NCBI GenBank assembly: GCA_015664885.1 | Contig: DQPL01000089.1 | Span: 62,001-126,000, forward strand | Source: Gemmatimonadota bacterium | GTDB taxonomy: Bacteria; Gemmatimonadota; Gemmatimonadetes; Longimicrobiales; Gaopeijiaceae | Reading direction: 5' to 3' | Length of the DNA stretch: 64,000 nt | Shown here: in pieces, positions 12,852 through 16,859 of the stretch | Layout of the letters: the number at the start of each line of letters is the position of its first letter | Numbering within the stretch: position 1 is the stretch's first letter | Notes under the pieces: generated by a model | Databases searched by the model: none | What the model was told of the DNA's origin: nothing | Seen by the model: only the letters and a program-made list of their open reading frames with translations | Made by a program: the position numbers and the translations under genes

Positions 12852-14264
12852 CTACAATGTCGCGCCTAGAAGACCGAAGCAGACCGTGGCGATCGCGCCA
12901 CCGACCAGGGCGTAAGGCAGCTGAGTTCGAACGTGGTCGATGTGGTCGGTCGCCGACGCCATCGACGATATGATCGTAGTGTCGCTGATGGGTGAGCAAT
13001 GGTCGCCGAAGATGCCGCCAGACAACGCCGCGGCCAAGAACGGAGCGATCGGCAGACCCAGTCCCGCGGCAGCCGGTACCGCGATGGGGAGCATGATCGC
13101 GAACGTGCCCCAACTGGTGCCAGTGGAGAACGCGATGCCTCCCGAGACTAGAAACACGAGCGGTAGGTACACGAAGTTGGGCATCGTGCCTCTGGTCACC
13201 TCGGCGACGTATTCACCGGTCCCCATGAGCTGAACGACATCGCCGAGTGCGATCGCGAGCAGCAGGATCAGCGCGAGCGGCACCAGCCCCCCTGCTCCCT
13301 TCAGCCCGACCTTGACCAACTCGCTGGTGGTGAACGCTCCTTGCACGCGCAGCATCAACCACGCCACCGCAAGCCCGAAGAGCACCGACCACAGCACGCT
13401 CGTCGAGCCGCTGCCGTCGGCAAACACGCCGTTCCCGGTGATATAGAGCCCGATGGGCATGAAGAGAACCATCGCGGCGATCGGCGCGACCATGTTGATC
13501 GCTCTAGGCGGTATCGTGTCGATGGGATCGGGCGACAGCACGTCCTCGTCGATCATCGGGGTCGCGTCCGGCCACAGCAGCTCACCCGCCTTGGTGCGCT
13601 CCTCAGCCTTCTTCATCGGCCCCAAGTTGATGTTCCATAAGATCACAGCCAGTACCAGCAGTACCGCCACGATCGCGTAGAAGTTGAAGGCGATCGACTG
13701 CACGAAGACGCCCAGCGCATTCTCCACACCAAGACCCTCGAGAATCTGCAGGTTGTACGCCCCCCACGCGTTCAACGGGATGAGGATGCAGATGGGAGCG
13801 GATGTCGAGTCGATGATGTACGCGAGCTTTTCTCTCGAGCACTTGTAGCGATCGAAAAGAGGCCGAGCGGTCGAGCCGGCGACGAGCACTGTGATGTTCG
13901 ATTCGATGAAGATCACGACTCCGGTTGCCCACGCGAGCAGTTGCGCGCGTTTCGCAGAATTGACCCACTTGTTCTGCTCCAGGAAGAGCACGAAGCCGCG
14001 TACCCCCCCGGAGGCCTCCACCGTCGCGATGAGCGCTCCGATCGCGATCGTGAACATGATCGCGCGCGCGTCGCCGTCGCTGCCGAATACGTCGACCGTA
14101 CCTTGGATCGCCGCCGAGAGCCCGGTCAGGGGGTTCCAATCCGAGACGATGGTCCACGCCAGCCACAGCCCCCCCGCCAACGACAGATAGACCTGCTTCG
14201 TCCATATGGCGAGCACGATCGCGAGCACGGGCGGCAGCAAGGTGATCCAGGTCGGATCGCTCAT
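12852..14264 (-). CDS. nhaC: Na+/H+ antiporter, NhaC family
   Basis: The 470-residue inner-membrane protein has about eleven hydrophobic helices. Family-like parts include an N-terminal PPVLAIVLAIWTKQVYLSL, the segment ATGVVIFIESNITVLVAGS, SAPICILIPLNAWGA, SGGIAFSTGTSWGTFAIMLPIAVP and GGIFGDHCSPISDTTIISSMAS, where the GDHCSP element is characteristic of NhaC-type carriers. It would exchange sodium for protons (or organic counter-ions in related members). The ATG at 14264 overlaps the stop of the glycosylase gene by 4 bases (ATGA), which also fixes the start; the frame is open further upstream only as shadow of that gene. Confidence 0.9.
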   Translation of the reverse strand: MSDPTWITLLPPVLAIVLAIWTKQVYLSLAGGLWLAWTIVSDWNPLTGLSAAIQGTVDVFGSDGDARAIMFTIAIGALIATVEASGGVRGFVLFLEQNKWVNSAKRAQLLAWATGVVIFIESNITVLVAGSTARPLFDRYKCSREKLAYIIDSTSAPICILIPLNAWGAYNLQILEGLGVENALGVFVQSIAFNFYAIVAVLLVLAVILWNINLGPMKKAEERTKAGELLWPDATPMIDEDVLSPDPIDTIPPRAINMVAPIAAMVLFMPIGLYITGNGVFADGSGSTSVLWSVLFGLAVAWLMLRVQGAFTTSELVKVGLKGAGGLVPLALILLLAIALGDVVQLMGTGEYVAEVTRGTMPNFVYLPLVFLVSGGIAFSTGTSWGTFAIMLPIAVPAAAGLGLPIAPFLAAALSGGIFGDHCSPISDTTIISSMASATDHIDHVRTQLPYALVGGAIATVCFGLLGATL

Positions 14265-14923
14265 TCTTGGCTTCCTTCGGTCGCGGTTGCAGACGGTTTC
14301 GTCGGCCCCGGATGACGGGACACTCCAGAGGCGCCGAGAACATAGAACCGATAGGGCCAGTCCGCCGCCGCGCTCACCCCGATACGTGTGGAGATGCCCA
14401 CCATGTCGTGAGCCACGGCCCATCCGGCCTGCAGTCGCAGCGGTTCCTCTCGCAGGTCGTGTCCGTACAGCTCGCCGGTGATGCCGAGCGCCTCGCAGAG
14501 CCGGCCCGGACCCGTGCTCAACGGCTCGCAACCTCGGCGTTGCTTCATCACCTTCTGCCCCTCCATCGCGTGCAATCCTCGCAGCAGCACAGCTCCCGCG
14601 TCGCCTTCGGGCCCCGTGACCACGTTCATGCACCAGTGCATGCCGTAGATGCGATACACGTAACTGAAGCCCGCTGGGCCGAACATCACGGCGTTGCGCT
14701 TCGTCGGACCTCGGAGAGTCGCGGCATGTGACGCGGGATCATTGGGGCCGTCATAAGCCTCCGTCTCGACGATCACCCCCGACGTGCGTCGTCCGCCGAT
14801 CGTCGATACGAGTCGATACCCGAGCAGACCCCTAGCCACTTCGAGCGCGGGCCGAAGCAGGAAGCCCGCGGGAAGCTCGGCGCCAGGAGCGAGTCCGGAC
14901 TGCCACGGCAGGGGGCTCGGCAT
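14261..14923 (-). CDS. 3-methyladenine DNA glycosylase (AAG/MPG family)
   Basis: This monofunctional base-excision repair glycosylase removes alkylated purines. The 220 residues contain ARGLLGYRLVS, the catalytic glutamate in VIVETEAYDG, the DPASHAATLRGPTKRNAVMF element, the intercalating tyrosine region SYVYRIYGMHWCMNVV, GAVLLRGLHAMEG and STGPGRLCEALGI, all typical of the AAG family. Length is normal. It overlaps the nhaC start by 4 bases; there is no obvious functional link, so the coupling probably reflects genome compaction. It starts 42 bases after the stop of the NYN-domain gene on the same strand. Confidence 0.93.
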   Translation of the reverse strand: MPSPLPWQSGLAPGAELPAGFLLRPALEVARGLLGYRLVSTIGGRRTSGVIVETEAYDGPNDPASHAATLRGPTKRNAVMFGPAGFSYVYRIYGMHWCMNVVTGPEGDAGAVLLRGLHAMEGQKVMKQRRGCEPLSTGPGRLCEALGITGELYGHDLREEPLRLQAGWAVAHDMVGISTRIGVSAAADWPYRFYVLGASGVSRHPGPTKPSATATEGSQE

Positions 14924-14965: not shown

Positions 14966-16834
14966 CTAGGACCGACTCCGCGAGCCACGGCCTCGACCGC
15001 CTCTACGTCCGCCACGTCCGCTCTCGCTTCCGCCCCCGTCCGATTCGCCGGCAGTCCGCCTGCTGTAGTCGGCGCGCCACGCTTCGAGCACCTGCTCCGC
15101 GCGGGCGGGTGGGACGGCTGCTGAGATCGCGGCCGGGTCATCGCGTAGGGTTCTGAAGAGGTCCGGGCCGAAGCGCTCGACCAGCGTCTCCGCGGTCTTG
15201 TCCCCCACGCCCTTGTAGCGGTGCGCCAGATAGCGGACGATGGCATCGGGCTCGCTCGGGAGACCGAGCGAGCCGAGATCGACTTCGCCGGCCGCTGCCG
15301 TCTCTGCGACTTGCGGCGACGCGGCCTCCACGGGCGCATCTTCAGTCGCCTCATCCGGCGCCACATACGGCGCCGGACTTGAAGCAGCGAAGGCCTGGCC
15401 CTCGAACAGTAACGGCTGGTCCTCGGCCCCTCGGCGGCGCGTGGACCCACGCCGCGGACCGAGACGCAGACCCAGGTCTGCCAGGTCGGAGGGCAGCACC
15501 TCGACGATCCTGGGCTCGCTGCTCTCCGCGACAGGCTCGGACGCCGACTCGGCATCGGGCACGTCGTCAGCCGCCGCTTGGGACTCGAGTCCTCTAGGAT
15601 CCTCATCCGCGACCGCCACCTCCGCAGCACCGGTCACCAGGCTCACCTGGAAGTTGCCGCGGTCCGTCCGCTCCGCTTCGATGATGCCGTGTTCTGTGGC
15701 CTGGGCCAGGAATTTCGAGAACTTCGGGAAGCCCAGCTCGGCCTCGTCGAACGAGCGGTCTCTCTGAAGCATCTTTCGCTTCACGTCGGAGTCACGAACG
15801 GACTCACGCCCCGCTGCTCGGAGATCCTCCAGCGCGGCCCTCAGCAAAGAATAGGCATCCTGGAGTGGGTCATCGGAGGCCTCCGACGCGTCCGCCGACC
15901 CGGACCCCTCTTCGGGCGTGTCGCGGTCAACGCGATCACGTCTGCCTCGGCCGCCGCCCCGGCGAGTGTGGCTCTCACGCGAGTTACTCGTGGCTGCGGG
16001 GCGCCGCCCGCGCCCTCTCATGGGCCCGACCTCGTACTGGCCGTTCTCCAGCTTCTTCAGCTTCACGAGCCCGCGCGAAGAAGCCTCCGCAAGGAACTTG
16101 CTGAACTTGCTGAAGCCCATGCCGGCCTCGTCGAAGTTCGCATCCAACTCCTGCATGACTTGCTTCAGCCGATCCGAGCGCATGACGTCGCTTCGCGCCA
16201 CCATTTTTTTCAGCGCCTCGCCGACAAGCACCCAGGGGTCCCGAGCCTTCTGGTGGAGTTCGGTCGTCTTGGTGAGACCGGTGAGGCTCGTGTAGGAGTA
16301 ATACTCGTCGCAGTTCTGAACGAGGATGTCCGAGCTCGATTCCTGAATGCCCACGCCGATGACGTACTTCCCGTACTCCTTGAGCTTGAGCACCAAGCTG
16401 GAAAAATCCGAATCCCCCGTGAGCAGGATATACGTCCCGATCTCGGGTCGAATGAAGACGAGCTCGACCGCGTCGATCGCCATGCGAATGTCGGTCGCGT
16501 TCTTCTTGTTGCTCCCGTAGGCGGGCGCGAAGATCAGATCGACCGACGCCTCCGAGAGCGGCACGATGTATTGCGGATAGCGACGCCAGTCGGCATAGGC
16601 TCGCTGGACGCTGACCTTGCCCTTGATGACATCGGTGTCGAGAAGGCTTTTGAGTTCCTTCGAGAGGTCGCTGCGCACACCCATCGTGACGTTGTCGAAG
16701 TCGATGAGCAGCGCTGCGTGAGGCGTGTCTTGCGCCGAGGAGCCCGGTCCCCCTTGGTGGGGGGCCCTGGTATACGGTGTACCCATTTGATTTTGTCTCG
16801 CAAACTGAATTGTCTTGCCGCGAGACCTCCCCAC
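14966..16834 (-). CDS. NYN ribonuclease-like protein with two OST-HTH/LOTUS domains and a helix-hairpin-helix
   Basis: The 622-residue product has four parts. Residues ~38-185 form an NYN/LabA-like PIN-fold domain with acidic residues in LLIDFDNVTMG, NATDIRMAIDAVELV and LLTGDSDFSSLVLKLKEYG. Two LOTUS-like repeats lie at ~198-270 and ~325-398, sharing the FDEAxxGFxKFSKFLAxA element. A helix-hairpin-helix follows at ~533-590 (HRYKGVGDKTAETLVERFG), then an Arg/Gly-rich tail. The GTG start at 16834 gives this length; an ATG at 16786 would drop 16 residues, and neither has a strong ribosome site. The likely role is RNA cleavage or RNA binding in the cytoplasm. An acidic low-complexity linker spans ~400-525. 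Confidence 0.87.
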   Translation of the reverse strand: MGRSRGKTIQFARQNQMGTPYTRAPHQGGPGSSAQDTPHAALLIDFDNVTMGVRSDLSKELKSLLDTDVIKGKVSVQRAYADWRRYPQYIVPLSEASVDLIFAPAYGSNKKNATDIRMAIDAVELVFIRPEIGTYILLTGDSDFSSLVLKLKEYGKYVIGVGIQESSSDILVQNCDEYYSYTSLTGLTKTTELHQKARDPWVLVGEALKKMVARSDVMRSDRLKQVMQELDANFDEAGMGFSKFSKFLAEASSRGLVKLKKLENGQYEVGPMRGRGRRPAATSNSRESHTRRGGGRGRRDRVDRDTPEEGSGSADASEASDDPLQDAYSLLRAALEDLRAAGRESVRDSDVKRKMLQRDRSFDEAELGFPKFSKFLAQATEHGIIEAERTDRGNFQVSLVTGAAEVAVADEDPRGLESQAAADDVPDAESASEPVAESSEPRIVEVLPSDLADLGLRLGPRRGSTRRRGAEDQPLLFEGQAFAASSPAPYVAPDEATEDAPVEAASPQVAETAAAGEVDLGSLGLPSEPDAIVRYLAHRYKGVGDKTAETLVERFGPDLFRTLRDDPAAISAAVPPARAEQVLEAWRADYSRRTAGESDGGGSESGRGGRRGGRGRGSRSRS

Positions 16835-16859
16835 CCTACTCGCGTCGTTGGATCACGAG

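Follow-up and report, generated by a model that had tools for sequence, protein, structure and literature searches.

Bacterial proteins that fuse a DUF88/NYN domain to one or two OST-HTH (LOTUS) domains were recognized as a stereotypic bacterial form by Anantharaman, Zhang and Aravind (2010, PMC2848206), and bacterial LOTUS proteins have been predicted to be ribonucleases since then. LOTUS domains, bacterial ones included, have been reported to bind G4 RNA, according to work cited in PMC12247748. In our literature search, we found no description of a natural substrate of bacterial LOTUS proteins. The NYN domain of MARF1 (Limkain b1) has an acidic site and acts as a metal-dependent endoribonuclease (PMC6294520). 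Among other RNases, RNase E acts on its own rne 5' UTR in a feedback loop (PMC10989929), and T4 RegB cuts its own Shine-Dalgarno (SD) sequence (PMC3014915).

Here, we analyzed an NYN-LOTUS gene in a 64,000-nt stretch of DNA from a Gemmatimonadota bacterium (contig DQPL01000089.1; hereafter, the window). The minus-strand ORF at 14966-16834 is open and comprises 622 codons when counted from a GTG. A preliminary description had taken this whole ORF as the gene; the open frame was upheld, the extent was not. The methionine at position 17 (GTG numbering) is nearly invariant in 61 homologs, in contrast to the 16 codons before it, and the distance from a conserved upstream motif to the ATG is spread over all three frames among homologs (26, 18, and 12 cases). 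Translation therefore almost certainly starts at the ATG (16784-16786), giving 606 residues. The longer form starting at GTG 16834 was rejected because the 48 nt before the ATG, a non-coding leader, vary in length out of frame between homologs. The gene, the parts of its product, and its downstream neighbor are as follows.

14966..16786, minus strand: gene for the NYN-LOTUS-LOTUS-HhH protein, 606 aa, ATG start (open frame; near-invariant M17)
16295..16717, minus strand: NYN (PIN-like) nuclease domain, residues 40-180, with D45, D82, D115, D141, and D143 (PF01936, invariant acids, structural matches)
16019..16240, minus strand: LOTUS/OST-HTH 1, residues 199-272 (PF12872; profile match to the bacterial OST-HTH 2kpm, E 7e-14)
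15872..16018, minus strand: Arg/Gly-rich disordered linker between the LOTUS domains (low pLDDT; at least 3 RG/GR in 65 of 85 homologs)
15635..15871, minus strand: LOTUS/OST-HTH 2, residues 322-400 (PF12872, best stretch 349-394; hhalign with LOTUS1)
15281..15634, minus strand: long disordered linker, weakly conserved
15056..15280, minus strand: RecD2/XPF-type tandem HhH, residues 519-593 (NCBIfam RecD2 match, XPF match, model; one clade)
14969..15055, minus strand: Arg/Gly-rich C-terminal tail, not conserved (RG/GR counts in homologs)
14261..14923, minus strand: methylpurine-DNA glycosylase (Mpg) gene, directly downstream (PF02245, E 1e-59; adjacency counts)

From N to C terminus, the protein thus reads NYN, LOTUS1, LOTUS2, RecD2/XPF-type HhH, and an Arg/Gly-rich tail. 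The domain matches are far beyond chance by sequence comparison, and Pfam, NCBIfam, hhalign, and AlphaFold2 together confirmed the set of one NYN, two LOTUS, and one HhH domain that the preliminary description had proposed. NYN (PF01936) matched residues 40-180 with an E-value of 8e-24, and matched all 61 aligned homologs, in which the five catalytic acids D45, D82, D115, D141, and D143 are invariant. When the protein was aligned with NYN-OST-HTH proteins from viral contigs (~25% identity), D115, D141, and D143 still fell on invariant columns, and D45 and D82 on columns kept in at least 90% of sequences. We enlarged the alignment with these distant viral-contig homologs to model the NYN domain because our own alignment was too uniform. 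The resulting model (mean pLDDT 81) best matched the bacterial NYN protein 2qip (Foldseek E 6e-8), followed by the mouse and human MARF1 NYN domains (E 8e-7 to 2e-5, TMt 0.73-0.79). Judged by fold and alignment rather than by geometry, the catalytic acids are intact.

PF12872 was found in two stretches of the protein (E 1.4e-7) and in 61 of 61 homologs, so that the assignment of the repeats to the LOTUS family, a point on which the preliminary description could have failed, held. LOTUS1 and LOTUS2 match each other as repeats (hhalign 99.6%, E 1.3e-24), and both were modeled as winged helices with a pLDDT above 90. The best single-domain structural match to the LOTUS model was a LOTUS domain of TDRD7 (TMt 0.78-0.79, rmsd 1.9). 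Together with the resemblance of the NYN model to MARF1 NYN, this bears out the view of the protein as a candidate RNase with RNA-binding modules.

On these sequence features (a PIN-like NYN/DUF88 domain, conserved acids, and two OST-HTH domains), the protein belongs to the bacterial NYN/DUF88 plus OST-HTH (LK-nuclease) family, for which ribonuclease activity is predicted. It shares with that family (PMC2848206) an N-terminal NYN/DUF88 with one or two OST-HTH domains behind it, the same catalytic acids, and profile matches to 2qip, 2kpm, and 2kzv. Unlike the sporadic occurrence of the family elsewhere, it is near-universal in one class, and it carries an extra HhH, long disordered segments, and a structured leader. 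With MARF1 (PMC6294520), it shares the NYN fold, the acidic site, and several LOTUS domains, modeled here without a C-terminal extension helix. However, MARF1 has RRMs, eight LOTUS domains, and decapping partners, whereas the protein here has two LOTUS domains and no RRM (none was found by Pfam scan in it or in 61 homologs) and resides in bacteria without such partners. The MARF1 NYN sequence is too distant for a direct match, and no MARF1 match was obtained by sequence or profile search; 2qip ranked above MARF1 by E-value in the structure comparison, and the best structural and sequence/profile matches are bacterial (2qip, 2kpm, and 2kzv). The protein is not a MARF1 ortholog, and the suggestion that its domain set is more eukaryotic, or MARF1-like, than bacterial was not supported: the arrangement is the stereotypic bacterial one.

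Outside the LOTUS and HhH domains, the C-terminal half is predicted by AlphaFold2 to be disordered. The HhH region itself is helical in the model (pLDDT above 90). NCBIfam matched residues 525-590 to the N-terminal HhH region of RecD2 (E 1.6e-5; the RecD2 family, TIGR01448, matched partially in 61 of 61 homologs), and the HhH of XPF matched with an E-value of 2e-5. The region has in common with RecD2 N-terminal and XPF (HhH)2 domains a GVGxKTAExLVExFG hairpin and the helices of the second half. By contrast with those proteins, its second hairpin is degenerate, and it is joined to neither a helicase nor an XPF nuclease domain. Among Gemmatimonadota families (f1 being that of the window), the HhH is present in f1-f3, f7, and f9 and absent in f4, f5, and f6. 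HhH-bearing sequences form one clade (support 100/97), the root of which is unsure owing to long outgroup branches.

We noted other C-terminal ends in the families that lack the HhH. In place of it, the last 30 residues of the f4 homologs L144-L148 hold short ends resembling amphipathic helices (GLLKRVTSAIQKAV, SLFKRMSAALQKAL, and FWSRVKRGL; hydrophobic moment 0.38-0.61), which recall membrane-anchoring helices. Most of the f5 homologs L139-L143 and L158 end in basic repeats rich in Lys, Ala, and Pro, not in RG. As for the Arg/Gly-rich tail, the earlier claim was right for this protein, which has 8 RG/GR in 29 residues, a count close to expectation from R/G composition (P 0.09). The tail is not a conserved feature: at least 3 RG/GR occur in the tails of 42 of 85 homologs, and some ends are only 4-12 residues long. 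An RG tail was thus ruled out as a defining part of the protein.

By protein search, the gene was found in 278 of 298 Gemmatimonadota genomes and was absent from all six genomes sampled from the other class (f11). NYN and LOTUS1 were present in all 19 distant loci with a recovered gene frame. The architecture that the preliminary description had singled out therefore divides: NYN plus LOTUS1 is class-wide, the HhH belongs to one clade within Gemmatimonadota, and the RG tail is unconserved. Identity between families is 81-84% for NYN, 58-68% for LOTUS1, and 31-51% for LOTUS2; for Mpg it is about 50%, and when the window's genome is compared with six from other families, it is 52-58% for RNase E and 53-63% for RNase Y. 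This exceptional constraint on NYN points to a core function in NYN plus LOTUS1, with the HhH and the tails as lineage-specific extras. From these comparisons, the NYN-LOTUS protein looks like one with a core, slowly evolving function in the class Gemmatimonadetes. Both RNase E/G and RNase Y are found across the phylum; the enzyme is thus an addition rather than a replacement, and we rejected the idea that it fills a vacant RNase slot. RNase J (TIGR00649) gave no match above cut-off in 61 Gemmatimonadota genomes.

No close relative of the protein was found on viral contigs. NYN proteins with a single LOTUS domain do occur on viral contigs (L164-L193) and on a plasmid (L163), where the gene adjoins the relaxase gene traA. 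Three sequences (L085, L088, and L078) are labeled Gammaproteobacteria or placed in Pseudomonadota, yet their copies are of the Gemmatimonadota type; these labels are probably wrong.

Upon inspection of the leader, the following elements were delineated.

16787..16847, minus strand: non-coding leader element, conserved and present once per genome (model R1; covariation, slide controls, CM scan)
16826..16835, minus strand: conserved G-rich stretch GGTGGGGAGG including the Shine-Dalgarno sequence (nearly invariant alignment columns 13-22)
16818..16825, minus strand: hairpin 5' arm TCTCGCGG (leader alignment, covariation)
16796..16803, minus strand: hairpin 3' arm TTGCGAGA, ending 9 nt before the ATG (leader alignment, covariation)

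Read toward the ATG, the order is GGTGGGGAGG, TCTCGCGG, a variable loop (15-42 nt among homologs), (C)TGCGAGA, ~9 nt, and ATG, which places the hairpin between a strong SD and the start codon, with its 5' arm immediately 3' of the SD. We assessed covariation in 55 distinct leaders that had been selected on their 5' motif, irrespective of the 3' arm. For the 8-pair hairpin, 93% of cells were paired, compared with at most 61% when the arms were slid. Cells with a change on both sides numbered 19 versus 5.4 (sd 1.9) after shuffling (0/500), although related sequences are among those counted and the compensatory changes are concentrated in a few clades, which leaves fewer independent events than cells. 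Compensatory exchanges were clear (CG-UA and GC-AU), G-U pairs were common (35 of 55 at pair 29-57), and a perfect 6-bp partner arm was present in 44 of 55 leaders, whereas 2.9 were expected after shuffling. Single-sequence folding gave moderate support for the stem (z -1.9 in the window), and leaders L052 and L010 preferred another fold.

When 59 whole genomes were scanned with the covariance model, all 25 matches with E ≤ 1.4e-5 lay at the start of the NYN-LOTUS gene. The element occurs once per genome: the match in the window scored 65.4 bits, and the second-best in the same genome had an E-value of 0.095. No Rfam family matches it. Alignment and covariation thus indicate that a conserved structured RNA element is present at the enzyme's own gene. 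The linear distance from SD to ATG is 34-69 nt, and that from the end of the 3' arm to the ATG is 4-18 nt (median 9). Since the former is too long for ordinary use and the 3' arm lies ~9 nt from the ATG, the hairpin could join the SD and the start codon.

The element was detected mainly in f1, of which the g25 clade lacks it, and was not detected in f4-f6. In f2, f3, f7, and f9, individual stems near the ATG are suggestive, but most fall short of significance. The 75 nt preceding the ATG also hold, in the f9 leaders L155 and L157, another hairpin (GCCTCTCG...CGAGAGGC) directly ahead of the start codon and, in L017, TCCGGTG...CACCGGA in place of the usual stem.

On balance, we favor the reading that the protein is a housekeeping NYN-LOTUS endoribonuclease, with LOTUS domains that pick out G-rich or structured RNA, its own leader as a likely target, and negative feedback as the outcome. 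From family and fold, the PIN-like NYN domain would cut RNA at a metal site formed by D45, D115, and D141/D143, and single-stranded RNA is most likely what it cuts, after the precedent of MARF1 NYN. LOTUS1 and, secondarily, LOTUS2 would choose the RNA. In the window's clade, the tandem HhH and the basic disordered segments would raise affinity for nucleic acid, possibly structured RNA or transcription-associated DNA. The leader would set expression, with the hairpin placing the distant SD beside the start codon; by binding or cutting its own G-rich leader, the protein would part the SD from the start, and translation would fall. Given the binding of LOTUS domains to G4 RNA, as reported through PMC12247748, the best candidate target is this leader, whose G-rich SD is bridged by a hairpin, a feature of this gene alone. 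It suggests, indirectly, a substrate of the kind that the preliminary description, which was silent on the hairpin, had foreseen in speaking of defined RNA targets. The more specific proposal, that autoregulation proceeds by SD recognition and cutting of the bridging hairpin, and that the leader would thereby be the first natural target defined for any bacterial LOTUS protein, is tentative and rather doubtful in our estimate. Our literature search found no record of such cut-the-bridge feedback for NYN-LOTUS enzymes. Like the rne 5' UTR (PMC10989929) and T4 RegB (PMC3014915), the locus pairs a predicted RNase gene with a leader that is distinctive around the start of translation; unlike them, it involves an unrelated nuclease fold and a hairpin between SD and AUG, and its target is a candidate only. 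Since the element is missing in g25 and undetected in f4-f6, autoregulation via the leader cannot be a class-wide requirement.

The hairpin might instead do nothing more than tune translation (through temperature, Mg2+, or ribosome standby), unconnected with the activity of an otherwise ordinary NYN-LOTUS RNase. The SD-hairpin-AUG layout alone can serve initiation, and the median of 9 nt from hairpin to ATG is close to ordinary SD spacing, as the linear distance is not. However, a generic translation device need not be unique to one gene, as the element is in each genome, and feedback via the leader is well documented for genes of RNases (PMC10989929, PMC3014915); we regard this alternative as possible but unlikely. 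More improbable is that a transcription factor uses the inverted repeat as a DNA operator and that no RNA hairpin is involved, a view to which we give very little credence: the sequence does form an imperfect inverted repeat, TCTCGC-N-GCGAGA, but the loop of varying length, the common G-U pairs, the compensatory nature of the changes, and the start of the repeat immediately 3' of the SD all speak for RNA.

A role in DNA repair or R-loop control, in which the RecD2/XPF-type HhH would guide the nuclease to DNA or RNA-DNA hybrids in concert with the adjacent Mpg, also seems improbable to us. It draws on the best HhH matches, which are DNA-repair proteins, and on gene order: mpg lies directly downstream in 93 of 112 near relatives, in 5 of 6 f4 loci, and in all sampled f6, f7, and f9 loci, an arrangement thus kept in most of the class's families. 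Yet f4, f5, and f6 keep NYN and LOTUS1 without the HhH, which is thus not part of the core function, and mpg is kept at just 1 of 6 f5 loci. Acyl-CoA ligase and aroB are equally linked to the gene in near relatives, so that the mpg adjacency is partly general synteny.

The near-universality and constraint of the protein across the class, the HhH-bearing clade, and the leader element look new as far as we searched. The leader hairpin is a hint that synthesis of the enzyme may be under its own control. In this lineage, a near-universal protein has a nuclease domain that evolves at a much lower rate than RNase E or RNase Y, and its own mRNA carries an RNA element conserved in single copy. Together, these offer a concrete candidate target, which may also shed light on RNA choice by the LOTUS domains of animals.
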